45,515 bases of DNA, taken from IMG/VR virus record IMGVR_UViG_3300042465_002270, positions 1 through 45,515 of that record, one strand, 5' to 3'. Each line of letters starts with the position of its first letter. Positions within the stretch are counted from its first letter, which is position 1. Positions 13,497 through 35,647 of this stretch are shown here, in pieces. Made by a program: the position numbers and the translations under genes. The notes beneath the pieces were generated by a model. It searched no databases and was not told where the DNA came from. It saw only the letters and a program-made list of their open reading frames with translations. This DNA comes from a virus.

Positions 13497-14150
13497 TTAA
13501 GGTGCTTCGTATCTTCCATAATACTTATAAATTTCATATGGAATAACAGTCGAATCAACCCACCAGTCTTCATGGCCTATCTTGGCAACTAAAGAATATC
13601 CAAGGTTATTTAAAATCTCTCTTTGAGCATCACGCAGTGAGGCATTCTTGTAATTAATAACATACTCATGTTCGAAAGAAATCACGGTAAATCGATATCT
13701 GGATAATGGCAGGGCAATTAAACCATTCAATGGTGTTCCAATAGGAGCAAGAGGCCTTCCACCGTTATCCATAGGAGATTCAATGTCAATTTGAAGGTAG
13801 TCTATTTGCTTTGGAAAGTTATTTTCTTCAAAATACTTTAGATAATCAAATTTTGTAGCGTCTTGTAGCAAACAAGGGTTTTTTCGAACGGTATTGTAAT
13901 CTTCGACATTTCTTTCGTCTAGATCAAAACCAACTCCAGTCCAATCATACTCAGTCTCCATCTTATAAGTAGTGTTTCCACCTATTGGACCTGCTGATCC
14001 CATCTCTACATAATATCCATTTTTCTTATATTCTAGGATGTCTAAAGCAAAAGTGTCTGAGGCTTGCATCACATTGCCTTTTCCTATCATGTATGTGTTA
14101 AGCTCTTGTCTGCTCATATTATTTATTTTATCTATACGTGGATCCATCAT
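13497..14150 (-). CDS. FkbM-like methyltransferase
   Basis: A 217-aa protein resembling the FkbM family of SAM-dependent methyltransferases: GYYVEMGSAGPIGGNTT (about residues 45-61) fits motif I, GVGFDLDER (about 73-81) fits the acidic end of strand 2, and IDYLQIDIESP (about 115-125) fits motif IV. Family members usually methylate sugar hydroxyls or peptide products. It is translated from a GAGG site at the end of the oxygenase gene, which it overlaps by 23 bases. It is therefore in one operon with that oxygenase and a zinc-ribbon protein. A role in decorating a glycan or fibre is inference. Confidence 0.7.
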   Translation of the reverse strand: MMDPRIDKINNMSRQELNTYMIGKGNVMQASDTFALDILEYKKNGYYVEMGSAGPIGGNTTYKMETEYDWTGVGFDLDERNVEDYNTVRKNPCLLQDATKFDYLKYFEENNFPKQIDYLQIDIESPMDNGGRPLAPIGTPLNGLIALPLSRYRFTVISFEHEYVINYKNASLRDAQREILNNLGYSLVAKIGHEDWWVDSTVIPYEIYKYYGRYEAP

Positions 14151-14718
14151 GTTCCTCTATTTCGCTAAAGAGTTCTTTATTTAAAAGAACTGGACTATCT
14201 TTTGATCCTCTTACAAAGGTTGTTGAAAAATATCGTGGTAAGTCATCGGTAACAGGCAAATTTTTATGCAATATATTCCCACCATGCATAACCAATGACC
14301 TGGCTTTAGGTTTATGAACTATGCCTAGCTCAGAATACTCTAGCTCTCCACCTTGGTACTCATCATTATAATATATACATATACCGTATCTAATGTGATA
14401 TGGTTCATCGTATAGCCAGTAATCCCTATGTTCCTGGATTGTTGCTCCTTGCCTATACCGTTGAAGTGCAACACCTCCTACATATAACAATGATTCAAAT
14501 AGGTTATTGACTTGATCTTCTATTTCTCTAAATACTTCTGGTTTCTCACCGTTATATTGTTTGCCATAGAAAAATCCATTTTTATAATCATCATTAACTG
14601 ATAACCACCATTGCTCTTCATCTAACTCTGATGAAAACTTTAGTATTTTTTCTTGTTGCTCAATGGTAACAAAATCTTCAACTTCATAAATATCTGGGGA
14701 TAACCTATTAATTTTCAT
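14128..14718 (-). CDS. 2OG-Fe(II) oxygenase (prolyl-4-hydroxylase type)
   Basis: A 196-aa protein of the 2-oxoglutarate/Fe(II) oxygenase superfamily. The iron ligands H97-x-D99 (QEHRDYW) and a distal His (H151 in NILHKNLP) are present, with R162 as the likely 2OG anchor. The segment YYNDEYQGGELEY (116-128) is the family strand-turn. The start used is the ATG one base after the upstream stop codon. It is the only oxygenase outside the 28-35 kb cluster. The substrate is unknown; a proline- or glycan-modifying role is inferred. Confidence 0.85.
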   Translation of the reverse strand: MKINRLSPDIYEVEDFVTIEQQEKILKFSSELDEEQWWLSVNDDYKNGFFYGKQYNGEKPEVFREIEDQVNNLFESLLYVGGVALQRYRQGATIQEHRDYWLYDEPYHIRYGICIYYNDEYQGGELEYSELGIVHKPKARSLVMHGGNILHKNLPVTDDLPRYFSTTFVRGSKDSPVLLNKELFSEIEEHDGSTYR

Positions 14719-14719
14719 A

Positions 14720-14914
14720 TTACCACTTACCAATCGGACATTTAGCATTTAACAACATAGATTTAGCAGCCATAAAACATCCACATTTTTTGCAAGTTTG
14801 AGTCTTTGGTCTAAACCAATCACAAGTTTTGCAAATATCTAGTCGAGTTTCTTTTATATCTTTTTCAACTCTTGGCGAACCATTAATTAAGTCAAAAGGG
14901 GTTACATCATCCAT
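14720..14914 (-). CDS. Small zinc-ribbon protein next to oxygenase
   Basis: A 64-aa protein with CKTC, CKKCGC and a final Cys (NAKCPIGKW). CKKCGCFMAAK and the CP..KW end are shared with the plus-strand protein at 28191-28451; both lie just upstream of a 2OG-Fe(II) oxygenase gene. I recall the family (perhaps DUF6171) from T4-like and aquatic phages; function unknown. A -10 box at 14921-14926 places the transcript start exactly on its ATG. Confidence 0.75.
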   Translation of the reverse strand: MDDVTPFDLINGSPRVEKDIKETRLDICKTCDWFRPKTQTCKKCGCFMAAKSMLLNAKCPIGKW

Positions 14915-14920
14915 ATACTT

Positions 14921-14926
14921 ATTATA
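14921..14926 (-). promoter_or_regulatory. -10 box TATAAT, leaderless
   Basis: TATAAT (minus strand) at the distance that predicts a start at 14914, the first base of the zinc-ribbon gene. The 145 bases between this and the divergent plus promoter hold two small inverted repeats (GGATC-TTT-GATCC near 14968-14980, and a CGAC/GTCG pair near 15018-15035). Confidence 0.55.
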
Positions 14927-15058
14927 GCCTATAGAGAGGACAGGAGCCGATTTAAGACATGTTTGGATCTTTGATCCATATGTTGTCTAGGGGAGGGTTT
15001 GTTATCTCTATTTTCGGCGACTTCTATATTCCGTCGAAATTAAAATCTTATATAATGA

Positions 15059-15064
15059 TATAAT
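15059..15064 (+). promoter_or_regulatory. Extended -10 TGA-TATAAT, leaderless
   Basis: TATAAT preceded by TGA; predicted start 15071, one base before the ATG of the holin-like gene. No -35 box evident. Confidence 0.55.
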
Positions 15065-15071
15065 AACTCTT

Positions 15072-15344
15072 ATGACTATACAAGACTGGGCTGCTTTAAT
15101 TTTAAGCGTATTAACCATAGTCGGCATCATGGCTGGCGGAATCAAATTTCTCGTAAAACATTATCTAAGTGAACTTAAACCCAATTCAGGCTCATCTATG
15201 AAAGACCAAATTTCAAGGCTAGAAACTCGCATTAATGAAGCAGATGTTAGTCGTAAGCAGATGAAAGAAGATCATAAGGTTATGAAAGAAAAGCTAGACC
15301 ATATGTATGATATTCTTTTAGAGTATATATCTAAATCTAAGTAG
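15072..15344 (+). CDS. Holin-like membrane protein
   Basis: A 90-aa protein with one membrane helix (about residues 8-30, ALILSVLTIVGIMAGGIKFL) and a charged coiled-coil tail (about 42-85). Size and layout match phage holins and small membrane-anchored coiled-coil proteins of actinobacteriophages. No lysin is adjacent; the lysozyme-like gene is at 20087-20632. The call rests on topology alone. Confidence 0.55.
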   Translation: MTIQDWAALILSVLTIVGIMAGGIKFLVKHYLSELKPNSGSSMKDQISRLETRINEADVSRKQMKEDHKVMKEKLDHMYDILLEYISKSK

Positions 15345-15349
15345 TTCTT

Positions 15350-16027
15350 ATGATCCCCAAAATAATTTGGCAGACCCAAGAATCTGAGTTTGAAAACCTA
15401 TTGCCATTTCAGAAAAATATAATAGGAACTTGGAAAAACTTAAATCCAGACTGGGAGCATAGATATGCTGACTCCAAACAAAGAGAGCAAGACGTAAAAG
15501 ATTATAACGATACGTTATATAAAGTATATCAAATATCCAGCGGAATAAATAGAGCAGACATGTGGAGAATGGTAGTAACTTATACACATGGTGGATTTTA
15601 TGCGGATATGGATTCTATTTGTACGTTTCCGCTAAATAATGCTATATCCCAATACTATAAAAATGAAGATATGATATCCAGCTCAAAAGGATTTCAAACA
15701 AATTCTGAGTCTATAAATAACTCAAACTTTGCTGCTACAAAAAATAGTAAAACCATGAAATCAATTTTAGATGACATTATAGAAGAATGTGAAAAAATAT
15801 TAGCAAGTGGGAGCAGACTCCCGAGCACTATACCTGGATTTCCAGTTTATGGTTGTTTTTCTAAAAATGCTATAAAAAATGAATATGGTGTATGCTATAT
15901 AGATAACTATTTTAGTCATTCAAAAGACTATAAAGATAAGTTTGACATAGACTATAAAATTGTATACAATGGTAAATTGACTAGTTATTCAGAATTTGTA
16001 AAAGAATCTAATTTACCTATTTACTAA
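15350..16027 (+). CDS. DxD glycosyltransferase (GT32-like)
   Basis: A 225-aa glycosyltransferase of the sugar-binding DxD type. The N-terminus MIPKIIWQTQ, the GINRADMWR segment (66-73) and GGFYADMDSI (81-90, with D86 and D88) are the hallmarks of the GT32/Gly_transf_sug group. Such enzymes transfer a nucleotide-sugar residue using a divalent metal held by the DxD motif. It is complete and starts 5 bases after the holin-like gene. Phage glycosyltransferases act on phage DNA, tail proteins or host glycans; here the neighbouring fibres and modification enzymes make a fibre or surface glycan plausible. Confidence 0.8.
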   Translation: MIPKIIWQTQESEFENLLPFQKNIIGTWKNLNPDWEHRYADSKQREQDVKDYNDTLYKVYQISSGINRADMWRMVVTYTHGGFYADMDSICTFPLNNAISQYYKNEDMISSSKGFQTNSESINNSNFAATKNSKTMKSILDDIIEECEKILASGSRLPSTIPGFPVYGCFSKNAIKNEYGVCYIDNYFSHSKDYKDKFDIDYKIVYNGKLTSYSEFVKESNLPIY

Positions 16028-16793: not shown

Positions 16794-17534
<741 letters not shown>

Positions 17535-18554: not shown

Positions 18555-19328
18555 ATGGCAAGTGAAAGCATAGGTACTTTAGTACCAACAAGAATTCCAA
18601 GTCTTGGAGACGCAGCTGATATTCAGGTTGCTCTTAGAACATATCATTATGGGTCTGAAAGTTTTAATACAGCTGAAACAAATACAGCAAACTTAGTTAG
18701 CCCATCAATTGCATATACACTTAATAGCCTAGACGTACGAATTGATGCTATTGAAGGAGGAGGATCTCTTTCAGCCTCAAGCTTTAACGCAAAAGGAGAT
18801 TTGCTTTCAGCTTCTGCAAATGACGTTTTATCTGTAGTCACTGTTGGAGCAAATGGAACAATCTTAACTGCAGACAGCGCAACTGCTTCTGGATTATCAT
18901 GGTCTACTCCTGCTGCAGCAACTACTATAACTACAACATCCTCTACAACAGATGCAAAAATTGCCTGGGATACTACAAACAAGCAAATTCAAGTTGGTAA
19001 TGGAACAAGTCTTTTAAATTTTCAACCATTTAATGTAAATACAACTGCTAAAACTGGAGCATACACATTTGTTTTATCTGATGCTAGCACTCTTGTTCAA
19101 ATGAATGGTGCTTATGCCTTTACCGTTCCACTTAACGCAACTGTTGCTTATCCTATTGGAACTCAAATACACTTAATTGCACTTACAACAGGAGTTACAG
19201 TTGCTTTCACTGTTGGAATTACTTCATATGCAACCCCAGGAGCAAAAATACGTGCAGCTGGATCAATGGCAACATTAATAAAGCTAAATACAGATACTTG
19301 GGTACTTGCAGGAGACTTGATTGCATAA
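18555..19328 (+). CDS. Tail fibre protein
   Basis: A 257-aa fibre. The N-terminal third holds a short helical coil (about 50-75), then a Thr/Ala/Ser-rich beta shaft. The C-terminal domain (FVLSDASTLVQMN... to NTDTWVLAGDL, about 165-257) is a repeat-independent tip shared with the 690-aa fibre at 24749-26821 (NTWVVYGDL at its end). In both cases the next gene encodes an FN3-FFPP protein. Confidence 0.75.
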   Translation: MASESIGTLVPTRIPSLGDAADIQVALRTYHYGSESFNTAETNTANLVSPSIAYTLNSLDVRIDAIEGGGSLSASSFNAKGDLLSASANDVLSVVTVGANGTILTADSATASGLSWSTPAAATTITTTSSTTDAKIAWDTTNKQIQVGNGTSLLNFQPFNVNTTAKTGAYTFVLSDASTLVQMNGAYAFTVPLNATVAYPIGTQIHLIALTTGVTVAFTVGITSYATPGAKIRAAGSMATLIKLNTDTWVLAGDLIA

Positions 19329-20011
19329 TGCCAATTCCAGGAGTAACGGGTTCTTCAGATAATCGCCAGCCAGGAACTCCAACTATTGGAGCTGCAACTG
19401 CTGGCAATGCTAGTGTATCCGTAGCTTTTACTGCTCCAGCAAATACTGGAAAACCTAATACTTCTTTACTTTATACTGCAACAACAACTCCAAATTCAAT
19501 TACAGGAACTAGTTCTACATCTCCAATTACTATTTCTGGTTTAGCTAATGGTACTTCTTATACCGCAGTTGTTAAACTAAATAATACCGTTCAAGATTCT
19601 CTAAGTTCTACTGCTAGTAATTCATTTACTCCAGTAGCTCCAGGACCATTCTTCCCGCCATTCTTCCCGCCATTCTTCCCGCCATTCTTCCCGCCATTCT
19701 TCCCACCATTCTTCCCGTTCTTCCCACCATACTTCCCACCTTCTCCAACAATTACTAATCTTTCAATTGTTGAAGCATACAATGGAGGATTCTTAAGTTG
19801 GGATTCTACTCTTCAGGCTTCATACATGATTACAACTTCACCTAGCTCAAATCTTAATGGAGCAACTGGAAATACTGCTACATCAAGAACAATGACTGGT
19901 GGAACTCAGTTAACACAATATACCGTTACAGTAACTGTTTACACAGGATCAAGCCAGACTGGAGTTAGTGCATCTGCTCAAATAACCTTTACAACGCCAG
20001 CTGCCCCCTAA
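19328..20011 (+). CDS. FN3 protein with FFPP repeats
   Basis: A 227-aa protein starting at a TAATG overlap with the fibre gene. An FN3-like domain (about 15-105) is followed by a Phe/Pro tract (107-138) of eight FFPP-type units (the last YFPP) and a second FN3-like domain (about 140-227). FN3 domains on phage tails usually bind surface carbohydrate. The FFPP tract is unusual: every unit pairs two aromatic residues with two prolines, so it could form a rigid polyproline rod with aromatic faces. With the phage prolyl-hydroxylase cluster, the prolines are candidate substrates (inference). Confidence 0.8.
   Translation: MPIPGVTGSSDNRQPGTPTIGAATAGNASVSVAFTAPANTGKPNTSLLYTATTTPNSITGTSSTSPITISGLANGTSYTAVVKLNNTVQDSLSSTASNSFTPVAPGPFFPPFFPPFFPPFFPPFFPPFFPFFPPYFPPSPTITNLSIVEAYNGGFLSWDSTLQASYMITTSPSSNLNGATGNTATSRTMTGGTQLTQYTVTVTVYTGSSQTGVSASAQITFTTPAAP
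19646..19741 (+). repeat. In-frame 12-bp tandem repeat encoding FFPP
   Basis: Repeats of CCATTCTTCCCG (last base G or A) nearly identical in DNA, interrupted once by a 9-bp unit. The tract is GC-rich compared with its surroundings and uses the same codons each time, a sign of recent expansion by slippage or recombination. Confidence 0.9.
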
Positions 20012-24748: not shown

Positions 24749-26821
24749 ATGGCAACAAGAATGCAACAGCGTAGGGGTACTGCAGCACAGTGGATCTCTA
24801 CTAACAGTGGCAACGGTCCTATCCTAAACGCAGGAGAAATCGGGTACGAAACCGATACAAACAAATTTAAAATTGGTGATGGTACAAATCACTGGCTAAA
24901 CCTTGACTACTTTATTGATGCTAATTCAACAGCAAATCCATCATTTGGTTCAAGCATTACATTTGAAGGTGCAACTGCAAATAATTTTGAAACTACGGTT
25001 TCGGTAACTGATCCAACAGATGATCGCACTATTACTTTGCCAGATGCTACAGGAACAGTAGTTCTTGCCGATGCCAGCGGTAACGTAACAGTATCAGGAG
25101 ACTTAACAGTATCAGGAACAACCACTATTATTAATAGTACAGTTCTTGAAGTTCAAACTGAAGTTAAGTTTGAAGGCGCTACAGCAAATGGATTTGAGAC
25201 AAGTCTTAAGGTTGTAGATCCAACAGCAGACAGAGACATAACATTTCCAGATGCTACTGGAACAGTTGCCTTACTTGATGCTACTCAAACACTATCTAAT
25301 AAGACAATTAATTTAACTTCAAATACATTAAACACTACTCTTGCTCAATTAAATACAGCGGTATCTGATGCCGATGTTGCTTCACTTGCTGGATCAGAAA
25401 CCCTTACTAATAAAACTTTAACATCTCCAAAAATTAACGAAGATGTTATTTTATCAGCAACAGCCACAGAGCTAAATGTTCTTGATGGGATTACTTCATC
25501 TACAGCTGAGCTAAATATTCTTGATGGTGTTACAGCAACAGCAGCACAAATAAATGTTCTTGCATCTTTGACTTCATCTGCAACAGAATTAAACATTCTT
25601 GATGGTGTTACAGCTACCACAGCAGAGTTAAATAAGCTTGCTGGAGTTACTGCAACTTCAGCTGAAATTAATACTTTAGCTGGACTTACGTCTACCGCTG
25701 CAGAATTAAACATTCTTGACGGTGCGCTTCTATCTGTAACTGAACTTAACTATGTAGACGGTGTAACTTCATCTATTCAAACACAGTTAAATAATAAGCA
25801 AGCAGTAGTCGCTAATGTTTCAGATACTGAAATTGGATACCTAGATGGCGTTACTTCAGCTATTCAAACACAAATAAATGGCAAGCAAGCAACTGTTGCT
25901 AACGTATCAGATGTTGAAATTGGATATCTTGATGGTGTTACTTCAAGCATTCAAACACAGCTAGATGATAAATCAACTGCTTCTAAGACTGAAACACTTA
26001 CAAATAAAACTCTTACATCACCAGTAATTAACACACCTACTGGAATTACTAAATCTGATGTTGGCCTTGCAAATGTTGATAACACAACAGATGCTAACAA
26101 GCCAGTATCAACTGCTGCTCAAACAGCACTTGACCTAAAGGCAAATCTTGCAAATCCTACATTTACAGGGACAGTAAACGCAGCAGACCTTACTCTTTCT
26201 GGAAACTTAACAGTTAACGGAACTACAACAAACCTTAACTCAACTAACCTTGTTATTGAAGACAAAAATATTGTTCTTGGAGACACAGGAACCCCTACTG
26301 ATACCACTGCAGACGGTGGCGGAATTACACTTAAGGGCGCAACTGATAAAACCTTTAACTGGGTAGATGCAACAGATTCTTGGACTTCTTCAGAGCACAT
26401 CAACCTTGCTTCAGGAAAAGACCTAAAGGTAAATGGAACTGCAGTTATTAGCTCAACTGCTGGTGGATTTATATTTACTGATGGCACACAGACAAAAGAA
26501 GGAACTCCTTCTCGTACACCAATTATTCAAAAGACAGACTCTTATACACTGTCAGCATTAACTGAAAGAGATTCACTAATTGAAGTTGCAAAAGGATCTG
26601 CAGCAACAATTACAATTCCACTAAACTCAGCAGTAGCCTTTCCAGTTGGAACCTCAATTGATGTCCTTCAAACCTCAACAGGTCAGGTAACAATTGCAGG
26701 AGATGCTGGAGTAACAGTAAACTCAACACCAGGATTAAAACTAAGAACACAATGGTCAACTGCAACTCTTTTCAAGAGAGCAACAAACACTTGGGTTGTT
26801 TACGGCGATCTAACAGCGTAA
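24749..26821 (+). CDS. Long repetitive tail fibre protein
   Basis: A 690-aa fibre. The N-terminus (MATRMQQRRGTAAQWISTNS ... GEIGYETDTNKFKIGDGT, 1-48) is the common phage fibre start with the GEIGxExDTxxFKIGDG motif. The shaft has many copies of TELNILDGVTA/TTAELNKLAGVTA (about 230-400) and GYLDGVTSSIQTQ. A second block (about 480-560) is homologous to the 593-aa fibre. The C-terminal tip (about 600-690) is shared with the 257-aa fibre at 18555. Confidence 0.85.
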   Translation: MATRMQQRRGTAAQWISTNSGNGPILNAGEIGYETDTNKFKIGDGTNHWLNLDYFIDANSTANPSFGSSITFEGATANNFETTVSVTDPTDDRTITLPDATGTVVLADASGNVTVSGDLTVSGTTTIINSTVLEVQTEVKFEGATANGFETSLKVVDPTADRDITFPDATGTVALLDATQTLSNKTINLTSNTLNTTLAQLNTAVSDADVASLAGSETLTNKTLTSPKINEDVILSATATELNVLDGITSSTAELNILDGVTATAAQINVLASLTSSATELNILDGVTATTAELNKLAGVTATSAEINTLAGLTSTAAELNILDGALLSVTELNYVDGVTSSIQTQLNNKQAVVANVSDTEIGYLDGVTSAIQTQINGKQATVANVSDVEIGYLDGVTSSIQTQLDDKSTASKTETLTNKTLTSPVINTPTGITKSDVGLANVDNTTDANKPVSTAAQTALDLKANLANPTFTGTVNAADLTLSGNLTVNGTTTNLNSTNLVIEDKNIVLGDTGTPTDTTADGGGITLKGATDKTFNWVDATDSWTSSEHINLASGKDLKVNGTAVISSTAGGFIFTDGTQTKEGTPSRTPIIQKTDSYTLSALTERDSLIEVAKGSAATITIPLNSAVAFPVGTSIDVLQTSTGQVTIAGDAGVTVNSTPGLKLRTQWSTATLFKRATNTWVVYGDLTA
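25440..25960 (+). repeat. Coding repeats ELN-LDGVT in fibre shaft
   Basis: About a dozen imperfect repeats of 36-60 bp encode ELNILDGVTA-like units. They probably form a beta-helical shaft; DNA copies are diverged, so slippage is older than in the FFPP tracts. Confidence 0.75.
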
Positions 26822-26835
26822 TAAGGGGAATATAA

Positions 26836-27795
26836 ATGGCTAAGAAGACGGGTAAACGTTCATCTGCATCAAATGACTTTTTAGAGCCATTAGCGCCAAC
26901 AAGCGTAACTGCAACAAACGTAGGAACAGGCAGAGCGTTTAACAATGGCGCAGCCACAGTTACATTTTCTTTGCCTGCGCTATCCCCTGCTGCTACATCA
27001 TTTACTGTAACCTCGTCTCCTGGCGGATATACTGGAACTGGGTCATCTTCTCCAATTACAGTCACAGGTTTGCAATCTAACACGGCCTACACGTTTACTG
27101 CAACAGCGACTAATGCTGCTGGAACATCTGCAGCCTCATCTGCTTCAAGTTCAATTACAGCTACAACAGTTCCTGCAACCATGTCTGCCCCAACACCTAC
27201 TGCTGGTGTTAATCAAAACTCTATTGCCTTCTCAGCCCCCGCAACTGGTGGTAGCGCAATTACTGGGTTTACTGTAACAGGATCTGACGGTACTTCTGGA
27301 ACAGGTGCTACTTCTCCAATTCTTATTAATGATACCGCTGGAACAGCTCAAACTTATACAGTCACAGCAACTAATGCTAATGGTACAAGCGTTGCTTCTG
27401 CTGCGTCTGGATCAGTTACTACATTATCTCCATTCTTTCCTCCTTTCTTTCCCCCATTCTTTCCGTTCTTCCCACCTTTCTTCCCACCGTTTTTTCCTTT
27501 CTTCCCGTTCTTCCCACCGTTTTTCCCACCATTCTTCCCGTTCTTCCCACCATTCTTCCCTCCATTCTTCCCACCTTTCTTCCCGTTCTTCCCACCTTTC
27601 TTCCCGTTCTTCCCACCGTTCTTCCCACCATTCTTCCCACCATTCTTCCCAAGCTTCTCAAGTTGTTCAACAGCTGGTAACTATTGTGGAGCCGACGCAG
27701 GTGGTGCCCCATGCTGTGGAGGAGCAGGCTCATGTGATTTCTTTTCTTGTTTTGGAATAACAGGTTATGCTTGCGGTGGCAATAATTTCTGTTAA
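26836..27795 (+). CDS. FN3 protein with long FFPP repeat and Cys-rich tip
   Basis: A 319-aa protein: basic N-terminus (MAKKTGKRSS), two FN3-like domains (about 18-112 and 113-198), a Phe/Pro tract at 199-272 with about 20 FFP or FFPP units, and a C-terminal Cys/Gly-rich tip (273-319) with eight cysteines, enough for four disulfides. It follows the 690-aa fibre, as the 19328 protein follows the 257-aa fibre. It may be a fibre tip, the FN3 domains binding glycans, the FFPP tract acting as a stiff spacer and the Cys-rich end as a disulfide-stabilised knob. Proline hydroxylation by the oxygenases encoded just downstream is a hypothesis. Confidence 0.8.
   Translation: MAKKTGKRSSASNDFLEPLAPTSVTATNVGTGRAFNNGAATVTFSLPALSPAATSFTVTSSPGGYTGTGSSSPITVTGLQSNTAYTFTATATNAAGTSAASSASSSITATTVPATMSAPTPTAGVNQNSIAFSAPATGGSAITGFTVTGSDGTSGTGATSPILINDTAGTAQTYTVTATNANGTSVASAASGSVTTLSPFFPPFFPPFFPFFPPFFPPFFPFFPFFPPFFPPFFPFFPPFFPPFFPPFFPFFPPFFPFFPPFFPPFFPPFFPSFSSCSTAGNYCGADAGGAPCCGGAGSCDFFSCFGITGYACGGNNFC
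27430..27651 (+). repeat. In-frame tandem repeat encoding about 20 FFP/FFPP units
   Basis: 222 bp of 9- and 12-bp units built on TTC TTC CC(A/G) CC(A/G/T). Units at the 5' end carry more silent changes (TTT, CCT, CCC) while the 3' end is nearly homogeneous, which suggests recent expansion at the 3' side. Confidence 0.9.
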
Positions 27796-28523: not shown

Positions 28524-29234
28524 ATGGATATTTATGATGAAAATGAAAATCATTGGTTTACAAAAGACAGGTCTGAAACAGTTTCAGGTAGAGTTGAAAG
28601 ATTAATGCCTCAAATCAATATTTCTATTAGTAATCCAGGATTAGGACTAAACATTTATCATAATGTTTTTTCTAAAGATGATTCAGAAAGATATATTAAT
28701 ACGCTTGAGCACAATCTTTCAGGAGATAAAAAATATAAGTGGTCAGAAGCTAAAGTTACAAACTCTGATGCCCCAATTAAAAAAGCAAGAGATTGTGTAG
28801 ACTTTAAATATAAGCAAGAAAATCTTGGGCCAAGAGATGAATCTAATCAAGACTTAATTGATCTTCATGAAGAGATTTACCAAAAGCTAAAAATGTGTGT
28901 AGACGACTATGCTCATTATTGGGGAATTAATGTTACATATTACGAAGCATTTAACTTTGTAAAGTATGAGGGTGAAGGAACTCACTTTAATATTCATGCT
29001 GATCATGGCCCTGCTTATAATTGTACAGTCTCTGCTGTTATCTATATTAATGATGATTATGAAGGCGGAGAGATTAAGTTTCCAAGATTAGATAATTTTG
29101 TTCATACTCCAAAAGTTGGAGATATAGCTATATTCCCTTCAAACTATATTTATGAACATGCTTCTTTGCCAATGAAAACAGGAACAAAATATTGTGTTGT
29201 TATTATGACAGACATAAACGAGCTGAGCCATTAA
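28524..29234 (+). CDS. 2OG-Fe(II) oxygenase 1 (prolyl-4-hydroxylase type)
   Basis: A 236-aa oxygenase with the complete double-stranded beta-helix active site: H158-A-D160 (HADHG), distal H212 (YEHASLP) and the 2OG-binding K222 (TGTKYCVV). YINDDYEGGEIKFPRL lies between, as in P4H-type enzymes. Family members hydroxylate prolyl or other residues, using Fe(II), 2-oxoglutarate and O2. It is closest to the oxygenase at 30015 (both share YNCTVS, NDDYEGGE and FPSN). Starts the oxygenase cluster; overlaps the next gene at TAATG. Confidence 0.9.
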   Translation: MDIYDENENHWFTKDRSETVSGRVERLMPQINISISNPGLGLNIYHNVFSKDDSERYINTLEHNLSGDKKYKWSEAKVTNSDAPIKKARDCVDFKYKQENLGPRDESNQDLIDLHEEIYQKLKMCVDDYAHYWGINVTYYEAFNFVKYEGEGTHFNIHADHGPAYNCTVSAVIYINDDYEGGEIKFPRLDNFVHTPKVGDIAIFPSNYIYEHASLPMKTGTKYCVVIMTDINELSH

Positions 29235-30004
29235 TGAATAAGTTGGCAATCTTTAGATCTTTTAGGCCTTGGCTAAATAAGGATAGTGTTTCTGTTCCAG
29301 CACCAACACAGAATGTTATTCCTCAATGGTATAAGGATGCAGACAGATTTGCAAAAAATCCAATGAACAATGAATATTATAATGCACCAAAAGAAACTTG
29401 CCCTTTTCCAAAAGACGGTACAGTAGATGACTATGGAAAAATTCCTACATGGAAAGCATGTCCTGCAATCATGGATGCATTTTCAACTGGATATGTTTTT
29501 AAAACTCCTTGCGATTTAATATTTTCTAAAAACGTACAAGGAGTTATTGGTGTAAAGATTGAAGATAGTAGATATCAAGATTTCTGTACTCAAAGACCAC
29601 CGATGCCACAGTTTGAGCATCCAAAAGGATTCTATGAGCACCATTTTGCTTGGTCTTCTGATTGGGGGCTAGAGTTACCAGAAGGATATAGTGCTTTGTT
29701 TATGACACCAATGAATAGATTTGATCTGCCATTTTTAAACACAACAGGAATTGTTGACTCAGATAAGGTTCATTTGCTTGGAAGCTTTCCATTCTTTATT
29801 GCAGAAGGTTGGGAAGGAACAATTCTAGCAGGCACTCCATACCTACAAGTCTTACCATTTAAAAGAGAAAACTGGAAAAGTGAAGTAGAGATATTAGGAC
29901 AGGCTGAGATTTATGATAAAATGTTTAACAACATGAAGTTTTATAGACAGCCTGATGGCGGAGTATATAAAAATAAAGTTTGGTCAAGAAGAGAATACAA
30001 ATAA
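29234..30004 (+). CDS. Unknown protein within oxygenase cluster
   Basis: A 256-aa soluble protein starting at a TAATG overlap with oxygenase 1. It is rich in aromatic residues and Pro (VIPQWYKDADRFAK, PFLNTTGIVDSD, AGTPYLQVLPFKRENW), which suggests a jelly-roll or cupin-like beta fold. No HxD iron site is visible. I recall proteins of this kind next to oxygenases in cyanophage and other aquatic phage genomes, without known function. It may be a partner, an acceptor-handling protein or another modifying enzyme. Confidence 0.7.
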   Translation: MNKLAIFRSFRPWLNKDSVSVPAPTQNVIPQWYKDADRFAKNPMNNEYYNAPKETCPFPKDGTVDDYGKIPTWKACPAIMDAFSTGYVFKTPCDLIFSKNVQGVIGVKIEDSRYQDFCTQRPPMPQFEHPKGFYEHHFAWSSDWGLELPEGYSALFMTPMNRFDLPFLNTTGIVDSDKVHLLGSFPFFIAEGWEGTILAGTPYLQVLPFKRENWKSEVEILGQAEIYDKMFNNMKFYRQPDGGVYKNKVWSRREYK

Positions 30005-30014
30005 GGAGAATAGA

Positions 30015-30671
30015 ATGGAAACATGGACAGAAAAAATAGACCTTGGTAATGGAATCTTTTGTTACAAGGGTGTAATTAAAAAAGAAATTGATGTAATAAA
30101 AAGACTTGAAGATAATCTTAAGCCAGAAGGAGATACCACTGGGTACAGCTGGCAACCTGCGTATGTAGGATACAAACAACTAATGCCAGACTATAGAGAT
30201 TGTAATGATTTTAAGTTTAAGAAAACAGATATTGAAAATGATAAAAGTCAAGTCAGTCTAAACCTTCAATCACTTTGGCAAGATCTTTATGATGTAAAAT
30301 TACCAGCAGTAGAAGATTATTGCAGAATGTACAATATTCATAATTTGAAATATTGGGAAGCTTTTAATTTTATTAAATATGGTCAAGGTCAACACTTTAT
30401 GGAACATCACGATCATGGGTTTTCTTATAATTGTACTGTTTCTTTAGTTTCATATGTTAATGATGACTATGAGGGCGGAGAACTTTTCTTTAGACTACAG
30501 AACCTAAAAGTCAAAGCAGAGGCTGGGGATTTGTTTATTTTCCCATCAAACTTTATGTATCCACATCAAGCCATGCCAGTAACTTCTGGAACTAAATATT
30601 CTATTGTAACAATGCTTGATTACAGTAAAAAGTTTCACACTCCAGAAATGTATAGTGCAGAGGCAGACTAA
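30015..30671 (+). CDS. 2OG-Fe(II) oxygenase 2 (prolyl-4-hydroxylase type)
   Basis: A 218-aa oxygenase. The ATG after AAGGAG was chosen over an in-frame start inside the upstream gene. Iron ligands H131-H-D133 (EHHDHG) and H184 (YPHQAMP), 2OG anchor K194 (SGTKYSIV). Shares NCTVSLVSYVNDDYEGGELF with family members. Overlaps the next gene at TAATG. Confidence 0.9.
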   Translation: METWTEKIDLGNGIFCYKGVIKKEIDVIKRLEDNLKPEGDTTGYSWQPAYVGYKQLMPDYRDCNDFKFKKTDIENDKSQVSLNLQSLWQDLYDVKLPAVEDYCRMYNIHNLKYWEAFNFIKYGQGQHFMEHHDHGFSYNCTVSLVSYVNDDYEGGELFFRLQNLKVKAEAGDLFIFPSNFMYPHQAMPVTSGTKYSIVTMLDYSKKFHTPEMYSAEAD

Positions 30672-31387
30672 TGTTTAATATCTCAGTTGAAAAAACACAG
30701 GGGGCTTTGTTTGATATTCAGCCCATGTCAATTAAAAGAGACTGGATGGATGTAACATCAGAAGGCCATGCTTATAGATGTTTTCCAGTAACCCAATCAA
30801 ACGTAATTGGCTGGAGTCTTTCTTGTGTAGAAGATATTGAGTTTATTTGGGATGGAGTTAATGATCAAACTCCAGATCGTGTTGAAATATTCAGCCCATC
30901 GGGAGCATATTCTGGAAGAGGTCAATCTTCTATAAGTTTAAATACGGGTTTAGTTTTTAGAACAGACAAAGATGTAAGTATTTTTACTATTAATCCAGTA
31001 AATTATTTTAGCAATGAGTTTGAAACAATGTCATCATTAATGAGCACATCTTTTTATGACAATCCTCTGCCTTTAGCTATTAAAGCAAAAGTAGCAAACA
31101 AAAGAGTGGTTATCAAAGCTGGAACCCCAGTTGCTACAATAATTCCTATATCTTTGTCAAATTTAAACGGTACAAATATTGAAATTGTTAAATACCAAGA
31201 CAATGATAGAACAAGATTAGAAGCCAATATGTCCTATGGAAATGCTGCACAAGAAATAAATAAAACTGGGAAATGGACAGACTGGTATAGAGATGCGGTA
31301 AATGAAAACAAAGAATCTCAAGGTTCACATGAGGTAAAAACATTAAAACTAAGCGTAACAGACAATACGAAGGGTGATATAATATAA
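30671..31387 (+). CDS. Unknown protein, possibly DUF6065-like
   Basis: A 238-aa protein. AYRCFPVTQSNVIGWSLSC (about 34-52) followed by FIWDG and a late AGTPVATIIPI segment recalls the DUF6065 family of phage proteins, which sit near oxygenases and have unknown function; the family name is tentative. The C-terminal part is charged and probably flexible. It shares the AGTPxxxxxP element with the protein at 29234, so the two may be distant relatives. Confidence 0.65.
   Translation: MFNISVEKTQGALFDIQPMSIKRDWMDVTSEGHAYRCFPVTQSNVIGWSLSCVEDIEFIWDGVNDQTPDRVEIFSPSGAYSGRGQSSISLNTGLVFRTDKDVSIFTINPVNYFSNEFETMSSLMSTSFYDNPLPLAIKAKVANKRVVIKAGTPVATIIPISLSNLNGTNIEIVKYQDNDRTRLEANMSYGNAAQEINKTGKWTDWYRDAVNENKESQGSHEVKTLKLSVTDNTKGDII
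31378..31383 (+). promoter_or_regulatory. Extended -10 TGA-TATAAT, leaderless
   Basis: Predicted start 31390, exactly the ATG of oxygenase 3. The box overlaps the last codons of the upstream gene. Confidence 0.55.
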
Positions 31388-31389
31388 AT

Positions 31390-32070
31390 ATGGAACAAAA
31401 TAAAGACTCATATACAGTAGTTAAAAGAACACCGTCTATAACTCCATCTGGGTGGTTTGGGGATAGCAAAGACATGATTGTTGAGCTAGAAAACTTTATG
31501 ACGCAGGAAGAGATAGAGTTTTTAGAAAAAGCTGCCAAATCTTTAACAATTTGGGATGTAACCGAAAGCCATGTAAATGAAAATGGAACTGTTACCTATG
31601 ATTCAGATTATTGGAAGGATAGAGTTGCAACTCAGCCAACCTTAGACAAGAATGATCCTAAAATATCACCAATAGTTGCTGGCCTATTTCAAAGATTAAA
31701 ACCAATTGTAGAAGAGTTTTATAAAGTAGAAGTTCACCCAACTGGAACAACCATTGTTAAGTGGCTTCCTGGACAATTTCAAAAACCTCATGCAGATAAA
31801 GAATTACATGAAGGCCCAGATGCTGGAACTCCAAACGATTTTCCCAACTATGATCTTTCTAGTTTGTTTTATTTAAATGACGACTACGAAGGTGGAGAAC
31901 TATACTTCCCACTACAAGGTGTGCAGTTTAAACCTAAAAAAGGTGCTGCTTACTTTTTCCCAGGGGATAAAAATTATATTCATGGAGTTACTGAGATTAA
32001 GAGTGGCATAAGATTTACATGTCCATTTTTTTGGGAGATTAAAAAACATACGGGGGAGAGACAACCATGA
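31390..32070 (+). CDS. 2OG-Fe(II) oxygenase 3 (prolyl-4-hydroxylase type)
   Basis: A 226-aa oxygenase with H134-A-D136 (KPHADKEL), H198 (YIHGVTEI) and R208 (SGIRFTCPF) in the 2OG position, where members 1 and 2 have Lys. LFYLNDDYEGGELYFPLQG is the family core. No ribosome site but a -10 box placed for leaderless expression. It overlaps oxygenase 4 by 4 bases (ATGA). Confidence 0.9.
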   Translation: MEQNKDSYTVVKRTPSITPSGWFGDSKDMIVELENFMTQEEIEFLEKAAKSLTIWDVTESHVNENGTVTYDSDYWKDRVATQPTLDKNDPKISPIVAGLFQRLKPIVEEFYKVEVHPTGTTIVKWLPGQFQKPHADKELHEGPDAGTPNDFPNYDLSSLFYLNDDYEGGELYFPLQGVQFKPKKGAAYFFPGDKNYIHGVTEIKSGIRFTCPFFWEIKKHTGERQP

Positions 32071-32933
32071 CAGAGCCAGCGCTTAACCCAATAGAAATAT
32101 ATCCACAAATATTTGTTTATAAAAATATGTTTAAGGATATAACAAAGACGCACTCCGAGTTAAAAAATTCTTCAGGTCACGAAGACGAACTGCTAAATGA
32201 GTGGACAAAATGGTCTGACTTTGGAGAGTATTTAAACCCTACATTTAAAGATCATCCACACGGATTTAGCACAGAGTATTTGCAGCAGATAGAAACTAAA
32301 ACAGATAAACAGGAAGTTCAAAAACTTGCACTTCTAGAATTATTTAATAACTTTTATGCAGTAACAAAAGACTACGCTATTAAAAATAATATAGATCTTG
32401 ATCAAGATAAAGAGATAACAAATCATTATGGAGAACAGGTAAAAGAGTGGAACAGGTCTGGACCATCTATAGCAAGATATAGAACAGACATTGTAGACCC
32501 AATAGCCATGACATATCATTCTGACTATATACGCCAACCAATTGTTAGCCCAGGGTACAAGTTTGTAATAACTGCTCTAGTGTATTTTAATGATGACTAT
32601 GATGGTGGAGAGATTGACTTTATTGTTGATGGAGAAGCCTATAAGTATAAGCCAGAAGCAGGAGACTTTTTAGTATTTCCATCAGGTCATCCAGACATAC
32701 TAACAAAGAACGGCTCAGTCTATATTCACGGAGTTATGCCAGCAAAAAAGACAAGTAAATACCTATCCAGAATGTATTGGATGAAGTATTCTCTTGGAGA
32801 TGATGAATGGTTTGAAAAAGAGAAAGAATTTGGAAAAGATGTTTGGGAATCAATGCAGCCAGATATAATGCAAAAGTTTAGAGATGAACATCCCAATAAA
32901 ATTAATGCAGACAAAGAAAGAAGGATAAAATGA
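32067..32933 (+). CDS. 2OG-Fe(II) oxygenase 4
   Basis: A 288-aa oxygenase, the longest of the set. H151-S-D153 (YHSDYIR), H221 (YIHGVMP) and K231 (TSKYLSRMYW) form the active site; LVYFNDDYDGGEIDF is the core strand. About 130 N-terminal and 50 C-terminal residues, helical and charged, are additions not shared with the shorter members and may bind a specific substrate. Coupled by 4-base overlaps on both sides. Confidence 0.9.
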   Translation: MTEPALNPIEIYPQIFVYKNMFKDITKTHSELKNSSGHEDELLNEWTKWSDFGEYLNPTFKDHPHGFSTEYLQQIETKTDKQEVQKLALLELFNNFYAVTKDYAIKNNIDLDQDKEITNHYGEQVKEWNRSGPSIARYRTDIVDPIAMTYHSDYIRQPIVSPGYKFVITALVYFNDDYDGGEIDFIVDGEAYKYKPEAGDFLVFPSGHPDILTKNGSVYIHGVMPAKKTSKYLSRMYWMKYSLGDDEWFEKEKEFGKDVWESMQPDIMQKFRDEHPNKINADKERRIK

Positions 32934-33685
32934 ATCTAAACAATAAAAAAAGAATTACAAAGGACATAGTTATTTATGAAAACTTTGTTACTGATGAAGA
33001 GTGCCAAAAAATGGTTCAAGCACTTGATGCTCAAGCAGAGGGTGGAAAGTTATCATGGATGCCTATCTCATTTTATGAGTCATACTCTTCTGTACTTCCA
33101 CAAGACAATGACCAAGAAGTTCTTGACGTTGGACTATCTCCAACTATTTTTTCAGATATTGAAAAGATGATGCCAGAAGCAATTGCTTCCGTACACGACT
33201 TAGATCCAAAGGTAATATCAAAAATTGGATACCATACACAAAAGTGGGAGCCAGGAGCATACGCAAGAATTCACTCTGACAATACAGATGAGCATGGAAA
33301 ATCTGGGGCATTTACGAGAAGTAGGTATGCAGGCTTTTTATACCTTAATGACGACTTTGAGGGAGGACTGCTTAAGTTTCCAGCACAAGACGTAGAGATT
33401 CAACCAAAGGTTGGAATGCTTGCCGTATTTGACGGAGGATTTAACAACATGCACGAAGTATCCCTTATTACAAGTGGAGTAAGATATACCATCGGATCTT
33501 TCTGGGATGACAGAGAAGAATCAGATTATCCGCAAGAACTAAGAGATGCCTGGGCTGTAGAAATGAAAGAGACTAGAGCCAATCAAGAAATTGAAAGAGC
33601 AGAGTGGCAAGAGCTTTTAAAGCAAGGTTGGAAGTTGGATGCAAATGGAAATAAGTACAAGGTAGAAGATATTCTAAATGATTGA
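32930..33685 (+). CDS. 2OG-Fe(II) oxygenase 5
   Basis: A 251-aa oxygenase: H115-S-D117 (IHSDNTDEHGK), H175 (NMHEVSL) and R185 (SGVRYTIGSFW). FLYLNDDFEGGLLKFPAQD is the core. The C-terminal 50 residues form a charged helix. Overlaps the next gene by 8 bases. Confidence 0.9.
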   Translation: MNLNNKKRITKDIVIYENFVTDEECQKMVQALDAQAEGGKLSWMPISFYESYSSVLPQDNDQEVLDVGLSPTIFSDIEKMMPEAIASVHDLDPKVISKIGYHTQKWEPGAYARIHSDNTDEHGKSGAFTRSRYAGFLYLNDDFEGGLLKFPAQDVEIQPKVGMLAVFDGGFNNMHEVSLITSGVRYTIGSFWDDREESDYPQELRDAWAVEMKETRANQEIERAEWQELLKQGWKLDANGNKYKVEDILND

Positions 33686-34337
33686 GTCCTTAAAAAAACA
33701 GTTGACAGATGCTGGCTATGTAGTTGAAGATATTACCTCAAAACTATTTTCTGTTGAAAACTTTTTATCACAAGATCAAATAGATACTTTTTGGGATATT
33801 ATAAATAGTACATCTCAAGAAGACTGGGAAGTAGAATATCACGCAAACTTAAAAAACTTTTGCATGCAAAAATTTGGTAGAGATGATGTAGATAATCTGG
33901 TTGCTGAAGGTAAGTTTGAAGTTACTCAAAATTGGAAAGATAAAAATTTTAATATATTACACCATGAGATATACAGACCATTATATGATGGTTTAAACTC
34001 AATGGTAGTAAAATCTGATCCAGAGTTAATTTTAAGTGGTTTTGCAACAATTCAAAGAATGCAAGCGGGGGTAGAATTAAAATCTCACACAGATCAAAGA
34101 ACAGATCCATCTATAAAATATGCTACAATTGTATATATTAATGATGACTATGTAGATGGTGAGTTATTTTTCCCAAACCTTGATATCCAGTTAAGGCCTA
34201 AACCAGGAACTATGTTATTTTTTCCAGGCGATGAAAAGTATGAACATGGAGTCAAGCATGTAGGAGATGGACCAGTAAGATATGTTCTTGTTGGATTCAT
34301 TAAAGAAAAAGATCACTATCAAAAGAATAGGTACTAG
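33678..34337 (+). CDS. 2OG-Fe(II) oxygenase 6
   Basis: A 219-aa oxygenase: H137-T-D139 (SHTDQRTD), H190 (YEHGVKH) and R201 (GPVRYVLVGF). IVYINDDYVDGELFFPNLD is the core, with VDGE in place of the usual EGGE. N-terminal helical region as in other members. Followed 10 bases later by oxygenase 7. Confidence 0.9.
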   Translation: MIESLKKQLTDAGYVVEDITSKLFSVENFLSQDQIDTFWDIINSTSQEDWEVEYHANLKNFCMQKFGRDDVDNLVAEGKFEVTQNWKDKNFNILHHEIYRPLYDGLNSMVVKSDPELILSGFATIQRMQAGVELKSHTDQRTDPSIKYATIVYINDDYVDGELFFPNLDIQLRPKPGTMLFFPGDEKYEHGVKHVGDGPVRYVLVGFIKEKDHYQKNRY

Positions 34338-34347
34338 GAGGCACCAA

Positions 34348-34977
34348 ATGGATAGAGAAATACTTGAAGAAAAGGTTTACTATTACACAAATGTAATTGA
34401 AGACCCAAAAAGACTTGTTGAAGCAATTGAGAATGACAATCAAGATCCTTGGGGCGAATGGATGGCGTGTAGTGGACAAGAGTATGTCTATGGAACAGAT
34501 AAAAGTATTTCCCAGGCAGACCCATCAGATGAAAAGAATACTTATATTTATTCCACACTACAAAAGGCTTTTGACGATGTAGCAAGAGACTATGCAGCAG
34601 CCCAAGGTATTACAGAAGAGCCTAAACTATTTCCAATGTATCCAATTAAAAAATATCAAGCTGGTACATTTATGGGAGCACACTTTGATCAACAAGAGGG
34701 AGACGAAAGACTAAAAGTTTCTTTTGTTATGTACCTAAATGATGATTATGAAGGTGGGGAAATATCTTTTACTATTGCTTCTCCAGGAGGAATATTAACA
34801 GAGGCAAGACCTCCAGCAGATTTTGCAGAAGCCGAAAAAGGATTAAACTATACATTTGCTATAAAGCCAAAAGCAGGAAGCATCATTGTATTCCCACCAT
34901 CACCTCCATATCACCATACAGCACACCTAGTTAAGAGTGGCTTTAAGATTATGGTTCCACAACATTGGATTCATTAA
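34348..34977 (+). CDS. 2OG-Fe(II) oxygenase 7
   Basis: A 209-aa oxygenase. The ATG after AGGAGG was chosen; an in-frame frame upstream lies inside the previous gene. H112-F-D114 (AHFDQQEGD), a YHHTAH segment in which H190 best fits the distal ligand, and K200 (SGFKIMVPQHW). It has an insert of about 28 residues (GGILTEARPPADFAE...) between the core strands. It ends inside the start region of the dehydrogenase gene. Confidence 0.9.
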   Translation: MDREILEEKVYYYTNVIEDPKRLVEAIENDNQDPWGEWMACSGQEYVYGTDKSISQADPSDEKNTYIYSTLQKAFDDVARDYAAAQGITEEPKLFPMYPIKKYQAGTFMGAHFDQQEGDERLKVSFVMYLNDDYEGGEISFTIASPGGILTEARPPADFAEAEKGLNYTFAIKPKAGSIIVFPPSPPYHHTAHLVKSGFKIMVPQHWIH

Positions 34978-35647
34978 TATTAAAACAGCTATAGTAACTG
35001 GAGCAAGCAAGGGTGTAGGGTTAGCAACAGTTAAACGTTTGTCTGAAAATGGATACAAAGTTATTGCTGTTTCAAGAAATCTTTCAAAAGTGTCTAAGAT
35101 TATATCTGATAACGTTGAGGTATATAACCTAGACATAACAGACTCTAAAGCAATAGAAATATTCTTTGAAAAATACAAAGATATTACTTTAGATCTTCTA
35201 GTTAATAATGCTGGAGGAGGATCAGGTCCAACTCATATTATTAATGAAACTCCAGAAAATTTTAGAAAAGCCTATGACATAAACGTTACTGGCCCTATGT
35301 ATTTATCTCAACTATTTGTTCCTTGTATGGAGAAATCACAATCTCCAACTATTATATTTATTACTTCTTTTGGTGGCAAGGTCCCATATCGTGGTGGAGG
35401 AAATTATACAAATGCTAAAAGAGGTGAACGTGGCTTAATTGATACAATGAGACTTGAGTTTCCTCAATTTGGTATTAAAATTACAGAAATCTGTCCAGCA
35501 ACTATTGATACCCAAGAACAAAAACGGGAGCATGCATTAACTGCAGAAGATTTAGCAGAAGCTATTTACTGGGTAGGATCATTACCAAGTCATGTTAATA
35601 TAAATGAAATTGAAATTTGTCATATCAACAGTAGCAAGTATAATTAG
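34937..35647 (+). CDS. Short-chain dehydrogenase/reductase
   Basis: A Rossmann-fold SDR with TGASKGVG (21-28, cofactor loop), NNAG (90-93) and the catalytic S144, Y157 and K161 (GNYTNAKRG), all correctly spaced. It oxidises or reduces an alcohol or carbonyl with NAD(P)H. No ATG precedes the domain: the start is either the GTG at 34937, overlapping oxygenase 7 by 41 bases (236 aa), or an ATT at 34973 or 34979. It ends the modification operon; its substrate may be a sugar or an oxygenase product (inference). Confidence 0.8.
   Translation: MALRLWFHNIGFINIKTAIVTGASKGVGLATVKRLSENGYKVIAVSRNLSKVSKIISDNVEVYNLDITDSKAIEIFFEKYKDITLDLLVNNAGGGSGPTHIINETPENFRKAYDINVTGPMYLSQLFVPCMEKSQSPTIIFITSFGGKVPYRGGGNYTNAKRGERGLIDTMRLEFPQFGIKITEICPATIDTQEQKREHALTAEDLAEAIYWVGSLPSHVNINEIEICHINSSKYN

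Follow-up and report, generated by a model that had tools for sequence, protein, structure and literature searches.

What could a phage gain from seven distinct 2-oxoglutarate (2OG)-Fe(II) oxygenases encoded in a single operon? The question is raised by a 45,515-base IMG/VR virus record (IMGVR_UViG_3300042465_002270; hereafter the window), in which seven such genes, o1 to o7, occupy positions 28524–34977, each scoring above the PF13640 cut-off of 27 bits (34–52 bits). Our analysis suggests that the operon is probably, though by no means certainly, a maturation module that hydroxylates the Phe/Pro fibre stalk of a protein encoded just upstream, fp2, and possibly that of a second protein, fp1. 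The observations behind this proposal are the genes themselves, with intact active sites, purifying selection and a fixed order, their kinship to peptidyl prolyl and lysyl hydroxylases, and a linkage to stalk genes that extends across divergent modules and two phage lineages.

All seven oxygenase genes lie on the plus strand. The product of o1 (28524–29234; 236 aa, 41.8 bits) has iron ligands H158, D160 and H212 and 2OG anchor K222, with the ligands unchanged in 21 orthologues. It is followed by o2 (30015–30671; 52.1 bits), with H151, D153, H204 and anchor K214 in the numbering of its open reading frame (ORF), whose first ATG is at 29955; o3 (31390–32070; 226 aa), with H134, D136, H198 and anchor R208; o4 (32067–32933; 288 aa), with H151, D153, H221 and anchor K231; o5 (32930–33685; 251 aa), with H115, D117, H175 and anchor R185; o6 (33678–34337; 219 aa), with H137, D139, H190 and anchor R201; and o7 (34348–34977, ORF from 34282; 209 aa), with the HxD motif, a distal histidine and a lysine anchor. 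A conserved M-x-T-W in orthologues indicates that o2 probably starts at 30015, and start-site conservation makes 34348 the probable start of o7, in which case 10 bases separate o6 and o7. An eighth oxygenase gene, o8 (14128–14748), lies apart on the opposite strand and narrowly exceeds the same cut-off (28.4 bits against 27).

An original prediction, read from the sequence alone, had placed seven oxygenases in this interval, with all iron ligands kept, a lysine 2OG anchor in members 1, 2, 4 and 7 and an arginine in 3, 5 and 6, varied lengths and low mutual identity. These points held up. The HxD...H triad is intact in all seven proteins and no ligand is lost once orthologues are aligned; triad and basic anchor are invariant within each orthologue group, with the anchors as predicted; and cluster members share 20–40% identity with o2. 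The accompanying description of the genes as tandem and mostly overlapping by 4–8 bases needs amendment. The interval does hold seven oxygenase genes, but these are not strictly tandem, since two non-oxygenase genes are interspersed, D1 between o1 and o2 and D2 between o2 and o3. The overlaps are of the size given, but they occur in only three of the six oxygenase-to-oxygenase steps (o3/o4, 4 bases; o4/o5, 4 bases; o5/o6, 8 bases).

To place the cluster in context, relatives of the module were gathered by two protein-based scans of viral contigs, each returning 80 loci. About 150 freshwater viral contigs share the gene order, which in nearly all loci reads o1-D1-o2-D2-o3-(o4)-o5-o6-o7 and then a short-chain dehydrogenase (SDR); the order of D1 and D2 varies, and o4 is optional, being the member most often missing. 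Pairwise ratios of non-synonymous to synonymous substitution (dN/dS) were 0.04–0.12 for o1 to o7 and 0.07–0.09 for D1 and D2, and each of these genes is under strong purifying selection. Because the order is conserved in so many contigs and every gene is selected, the cluster is more than a product of chance. In trees that included o8, every member grouped with its orthologues from other phages in a separate clade of strong support, which rules out a recent amplification, as the original prediction had anticipated. Within these trees o1 and o2 derive from an old duplication and group with bacterial and cyanophage homologues; o3 to o8 stand apart from the sampled bacterial sequences, a split that should not be over-read as the bacterial sampling used an o2-first query. 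Deep allelic classes occur among relatives of o6 and o7, with two for o7. Judged by this phylogeny, o1 to o7 are ancient, individually maintained paralogues.

Their number had been called exceptional, a claim that the counts contradict. Relatives carry 6–13 PF13640 genes, records bearing the Phe/Pro repeat described below mostly 6–11, cyanophage genomes of 149–244 kb 4–13, and one record resembling the lake phage DSL-LC01 has 14; a curated cyanophage table lists up to five 2OG oxygenases per genome (PMC3037559). What is unusual is the density and fixed order of the oxygenases, not how many there are.

Comparison with solved structures shows what these enzymes resemble. In profile searches of the PDB, o1, o2, o3, o5 and o6 found as their best matches the prolyl 4-hydroxylase (P4H) of Bacillus anthracis (3itq/5hv0), the PBCV-1 P4H (vCPH, 5c5t), prolyl 3-hydroxylase 1 (P3H1) or lysyl hydroxylase LH3, and these five lie nearer to prolyl and lysyl hydroxylases than to other 2OG enzymes of solved structure. 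Collagen-type P4Hs, human C-P4H included, together with P3H1 are thus the best sequence relatives in the PDB for most members. For o3, the one oxygenase modelled, the predicted structure supports the double-stranded β-helix fold; it matched P3H1, PBCV-1 vCPH and Bacillus P4H first (E 1e-9), then PiuC and PHD2. The likeness to collagen-type enzymes covers the shared HxD...H triad and the o3 fold matches, and extends to the kind of target: collagen-type P4H and P3H1 act on repetitive Pro-rich structural proteins, and the putative substrate of the phage module is likewise repetitive. The differences are equally clear. A single phage operon encodes seven paralogues, its putative substrate is built of FFPP/FFP and not G-X-Y, and, whereas C-P4H uses lysine as its 2OG anchor, three of the seven phage enzymes have arginine.

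Among annotated phage sequences, the nearest relatives are the 2OG-Fe(II) oxygenases of marine cyanomyoviruses (phrog_61), at 26–45% identity; a megablast search against known phages gave no match. As in the window, cyanomyovirus oxygenases occur several to a genome and some lie close to tail genes, but they are scattered over 149–244 kb genomes, and none of the cyanophage loci examined had an FFPP stalk. Their proposed roles are in DNA repair or 2OG metabolism (PMC3037559, PMC2984593).

The candidate substrate is encoded immediately before the oxygenases. fp2 (26836–27795, plus strand) is a fibre-like protein with one or more FN3 domains (fn3, 1.2e-7), an (FFPP/FFP)n stalk and a Cys-rich tip. 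The stalk spans 73 residues (about 27433–27651), of which 55% are Phe and 45% are Pro. Between fp2 and o1 the window has two small ORFs, of 110 and 99 aa, and the gene preceding fp2 encodes a tail-fibre-like protein (24749–26821, plus strand; Mtd_N, PF18454, 7.4e-12), homologues of which adjoin the stalk gene in divergent loci too. In relatives the FN3 part and the grammar of the stalk are kept while the tip is exchanged for different Cys-rich domains, a Hint/intein-like domain (Intein_splicing, 1.6e-5) or tails that by eye resemble intramolecular chaperones. As read from its sequence, this architecture of a stalk with exchangeable tips is the anatomy of an adhesin. The Hint/intein-like domain, with its C-terminal HN motif, was seen in some stalk proteins (L198:6071–7393, L146:2593–3900 and L104:4156–5454), and such a tip may cleave itself. 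A second (FFPP)n protein in the window, fp1 (19298–20011, plus strand), has FN3-like regions on both sides of its repeat and is a possible further substrate. The codons of the fp2 stalk are rare elsewhere in the phage: TTC encodes 34 of 40 Phe residues, against 26 of 159 in five other genes, and CCG encodes 8 of 33 Pro residues, against 2 of 136. Such codon choice may adjust how the repeat is translated or be a trace of how it expands.

Stalk and oxygenases prove to be closely linked. In 52 of 52 distinct module loci whose upstream sequence extends to 3 kb or more, o1 is preceded by a gene for an FFPP protein, with a median gap of 732 bp. Four loci (L096, L126, L139 and L154) have module and tail genes in swapped order, and in these the stalk gene accompanies the module. 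Of the 52 loci, only 10 have a collagen-like ORF, and we accordingly rejected the collagen-like G-X-Y protein of the window's tail region (16797–17534; PF01391) as main or obligate substrate partner; it may be a further hydroxylation target.

We then approached the linkage from the other side, scanning 2.9 million viral contigs for the codons of FFPPFFPPFFP with no use of the oxygenases. This blind scan returned at least 120 stretches, of which 50 records, chosen mainly for length, were tested. Among the matches listed, 45 of the 50 had PF13640 genes, compared with 2 of 68 random records drawn with two arbitrary DNA patterns (2/50 and 0/18), each with a single gene (Fisher p = 2e-24, the counts not being phylogenetically independent). 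Where at least 2.5 kb of downstream sequence was available, an oxygenase gene lay no more than 2.5 kb from 59 of 72 stalk ORFs; in 53 cases it was downstream and in the same orientation, and in 29 of the 59 the oxygenase was less than 50% identical to any member from the window. The smallest module comprises the stalk, one oxygenase and a DUF6065 gene (L174). The spelling of the stalk varies (FFPP, YFPP, FFxPPx) while the pairing with oxygenases persists, and it covaries with module type, single-P units making up 41% in o1–o7 loci against 3% in divergent ones. The FFPP repeat was absent from the flanks of 78 bacterial oxygenase loci fetched from genomes. The two other loci of that set (L415, L416), on contigs assigned to Chitinophagaceae and Verrucomicrobiales metagenome-assembled genomes, carry stalk and oxygenases and look like phage contigs binned with bacteria.

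To control for shared ancestry, we compared 34 long records related to phage DSL-LC01 through their ribonucleotide reductase (RNR); these records carry between 0 and 14 PF13640 genes. Of the 34, 4 contain the strict FFPP pattern and 6 contain [FY]FPP, with 5–14 oxygenases each. Two seemingly stalk-less records with 5 and 9 oxygenases turned out to carry a variant stalk, (FF[ASG]PP[AGS])n, in place of the FFPP stalk (L581:5518–5916, L582:9758–10174). The variant protein is small (132–138 aa), lies between the tail gene and an oxygenase and ends in FK like YFPP stalks; over all 34 records the variant pattern marks exactly three, all with the module. Taken together, 9 of 9 stalk-positive records have at least three oxygenases (3–14), compared with 2 of 25 stalk-negative ones (G139, G153), and in both of the latter the contig breaks off at the oxygenase cluster, on the flank expected to carry the stalk gene. 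The contrast gives p = 1e-6, an optimistic value, since two of the three records with the variant stalk were already known when its pattern was defined; with the [FY]FPP pattern alone and a threshold of five oxygenases, p = 2e-5.

Where the original prediction had suggested distinct substrates, the gene context points to a single structural protein encoded nearby as the target, whose modification may differ in position or register from enzyme to enzyme; the neighbours that inform this view, the two DUF6065-type genes and the upstream Phe/Pro-repeat protein, were absent from that prediction. We propose that, inside the infected cell and ahead of virion assembly, the seven prolyl-hydroxylase-like oxygenases would hydroxylate the stalk of fp2, and possibly of fp1, with a different residue, register or repeat type for each enzyme. 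The genomic context makes the stalk the likely substrate, with Pro, or alternatively Phe, as the presumed site of hydroxylation. With phenylalanine at over half of its residues the stalk ought to be strongly hydrophobic, and hydroxylation could render it soluble, stiff or competent for assembly. A repeat that offers several positions and spacings would suit a set of paralogues; in collagen the work is likewise shared among P4H, P3H and LH. DUF6065 proteins and the SDR would serve as accessories, and the mature stalk protein would be a virion adhesin.

Several points weigh against this proposal. Substrate and activity are inferred from sequence and gene context, and the stalk protein's place in the virion is assumed from the location of its gene. 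Sequence matches to the PDB are modest (E 1e-3 to 1e-6), the profiles of o4 and o7 had no PDB match, and the o3 model is of moderate quality (predicted local distance difference test score, pLDDT, of 68; template-modelling score about 0.5–0.6). PHD2 and PiuC are also near in fold, so the fold by itself does not fix the substrate. Five of the 50 stalk records lack a PF13640 gene; in at least two the stalk ORF runs off the contig end, and the rest are fragments. All stalk phages found have related tail loci, and the linkage must in part reflect common descent. Lastly, DUF6065 relatives in haloviruses adjoin thymidylate synthase, hinting at a different role for this family.

The strongest competitor takes up the matter of descent: stalk and oxygenases may have been inherited as a block in a hypervariable tail/cargo locus, the enzymes being unrelated to the stalk. 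Homologues of the tail gene tf690 flank most stalk loci, divergent ones included, so that the locus is partly shared by descent, and cyanophage oxygenases can adjoin tail genes with no FFPP stalk present. Yet the pairing persists through oxygenase identities below 45%, strand flips, translocation of the module and changes in stalk spelling, and the stalk gene is retained far more consistently than RNR or collagen-like neighbours. The discrimination within the DSL-LC01 lineage also argues against such hitchhiking, if not decisively, and we consider it unlikely, though it is the alternative to be taken most seriously. Somewhat less probable still is that the oxygenases and SDR, with an FkbM-like methyltransferase and a glycosyltransferase, tailor a host or virion glycan or a small molecule. 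The SDR is usually the last gene of the operon, the window has glycosyltransferase and FkbM-like genes clustered with o8 at 13497–16027, and in relatives a pair of an o8-like gene and a methyltransferase sometimes follows the module. Glycosyltransferase and methyltransferase genes are not constant neighbours, however; the minimal module does without them, and the nearest solved relatives of the oxygenases are peptidyl hydroxylases.

Hypermodification of nucleotides or DNA, in concert with RNR and a dUTPase-like DUF6065 protein, we judge improbable. It would account for the RNR gene that adjoins the module downstream in 23 of 41 loci, for the halovirus neighbourhood of DUF6065 and for the weak likeness of the D1 model to a dUTPase/dCTP deaminase fold, but that model is of low confidence (pLDDT 60), and the other 18 loci, like the divergent loci examined, have no RNR beside the module while the stalk gene stays. 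With that linkage not kept, we rejected an RNR-linked nucleotide chemistry. Weak matches to the TET/JBP family of DNA oxygenases (PF12851) for o3 (20.6 bits) and o8 (15 bits) speak for it, yet they fall below the family cut-off of 34.9, and no TET/JBP structure appeared among the PDB matches. Least credible, and very improbable in our view, is an auxiliary metabolic role in which the enzymes burn 2-oxoglutarate or aid host iron or nitrogen physiology, as has been proposed for cyanophage or PiuC-like viral oxygenases (PMC3037559, PMC13184970). The Pfam family is shared, as is the superfamily with the Fe2+-dependent dioxygenase PiuC (PRK05467), and o2, o3 and o7 have weak PiuC-type NCBIfam matches; the best score, 37.4 bits, is nevertheless far under the curated equivalog cut-off of 143. 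Seven diverged, selected and stalk-linked paralogues are also ill-suited to bulk 2OG turnover.

Which organism would host stalk hydroxylation is suggested by two further lines of evidence. The best RNR matches are to mycobacteriophage Gaia and to lake phage DSL-LC01, the latter annotated as infecting Actinomycetia, and whiB, a gene taken to mark actinophages (PMC10202952), was found in 10 of the 14 long records examined for it, 11 of these 14 being module relatives and three coming from the stalk scan. The RNR matches and whiB make a freshwater actinobacterium the most likely host. To a broader claim we give about even credence: that freshwater actinophages and related lineages have a dedicated post-translational modification system, with 3–14 prolyl-hydroxylase-like oxygenases and DUF6065, that hydroxylates a genetically encoded Phe-Phe-Pro-Pro polymer to form the fibre stalk. 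Such a system would be the phage counterpart of collagen or extensin maturation, acting on a previously unknown structural repeat.

Aquatic phages commonly carry 2OG oxygenases as auxiliary genes without an explained function, and the roles assigned to them so far, in DNA repair, nitrogen sensing and iron uptake (PMC2984593, PMC3037559, PMC13184970), were guesses. Genome context here yields a specific and testable substrate candidate, an aromatic/proline repeat stalk. If the proposal is true, the virions of phages that infect freshwater bacteria consist in part of a hydroxylated Phe/Pro polymer. This would amount to a novel type of structural biomaterial and a novel class of protein maturation encoded by phages, and it would give DUF6065 a place in a system. 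In the open literature, subscription papers not being covered, we found no prior description of FFPP phage proteins, of DUF6065, of phage hydroxyproline or prolyl hydroxylase, or of a fibre hydroxylation module.

The accessory genes of the module are themselves well conserved. D1 (29234–30004, plus strand; 256 aa) is a DUF6065-like protein and, by sequence, not an oxygenase; it has no Pfam match but hits phrog_7084 at 4e-32, and is 75–84% identical across 17 orthologues. D2 (30671–31387, plus strand; 238 aa) belongs to DUF6065 (PF19541) with 88.2 bits against a cut-off of 26.6. By these respective matches the two are members of one phage family (PF19541/phrog_7084), a family of unknown function that here frequently accompanies oxygenases; relatives at 24–45% identity recur in divergent stalk-linked modules. 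The SDR gene (34937–35647, plus strand; PF00106, 1.8e-40) follows o7 in 35 of 41 loci.

Two results of automated annotation call for comment. PADLOC matched the oxygenases solely with its generic "2OG" accessory model and no other defence gene was seen, which leaves little ground for an anti-phage defence or CRISPR-associated system. The PHROG names "DNA endonuclease (V)" and "ferrochelatase" (phrog_2297, phrog_274, phrog_3531) came up for the proteins of the window and sit on proteins with a 2OG-oxygenase domain in RefSeq phage records too; the matched stretch includes the oxygenase core, and these labels are probably annotation artefacts.

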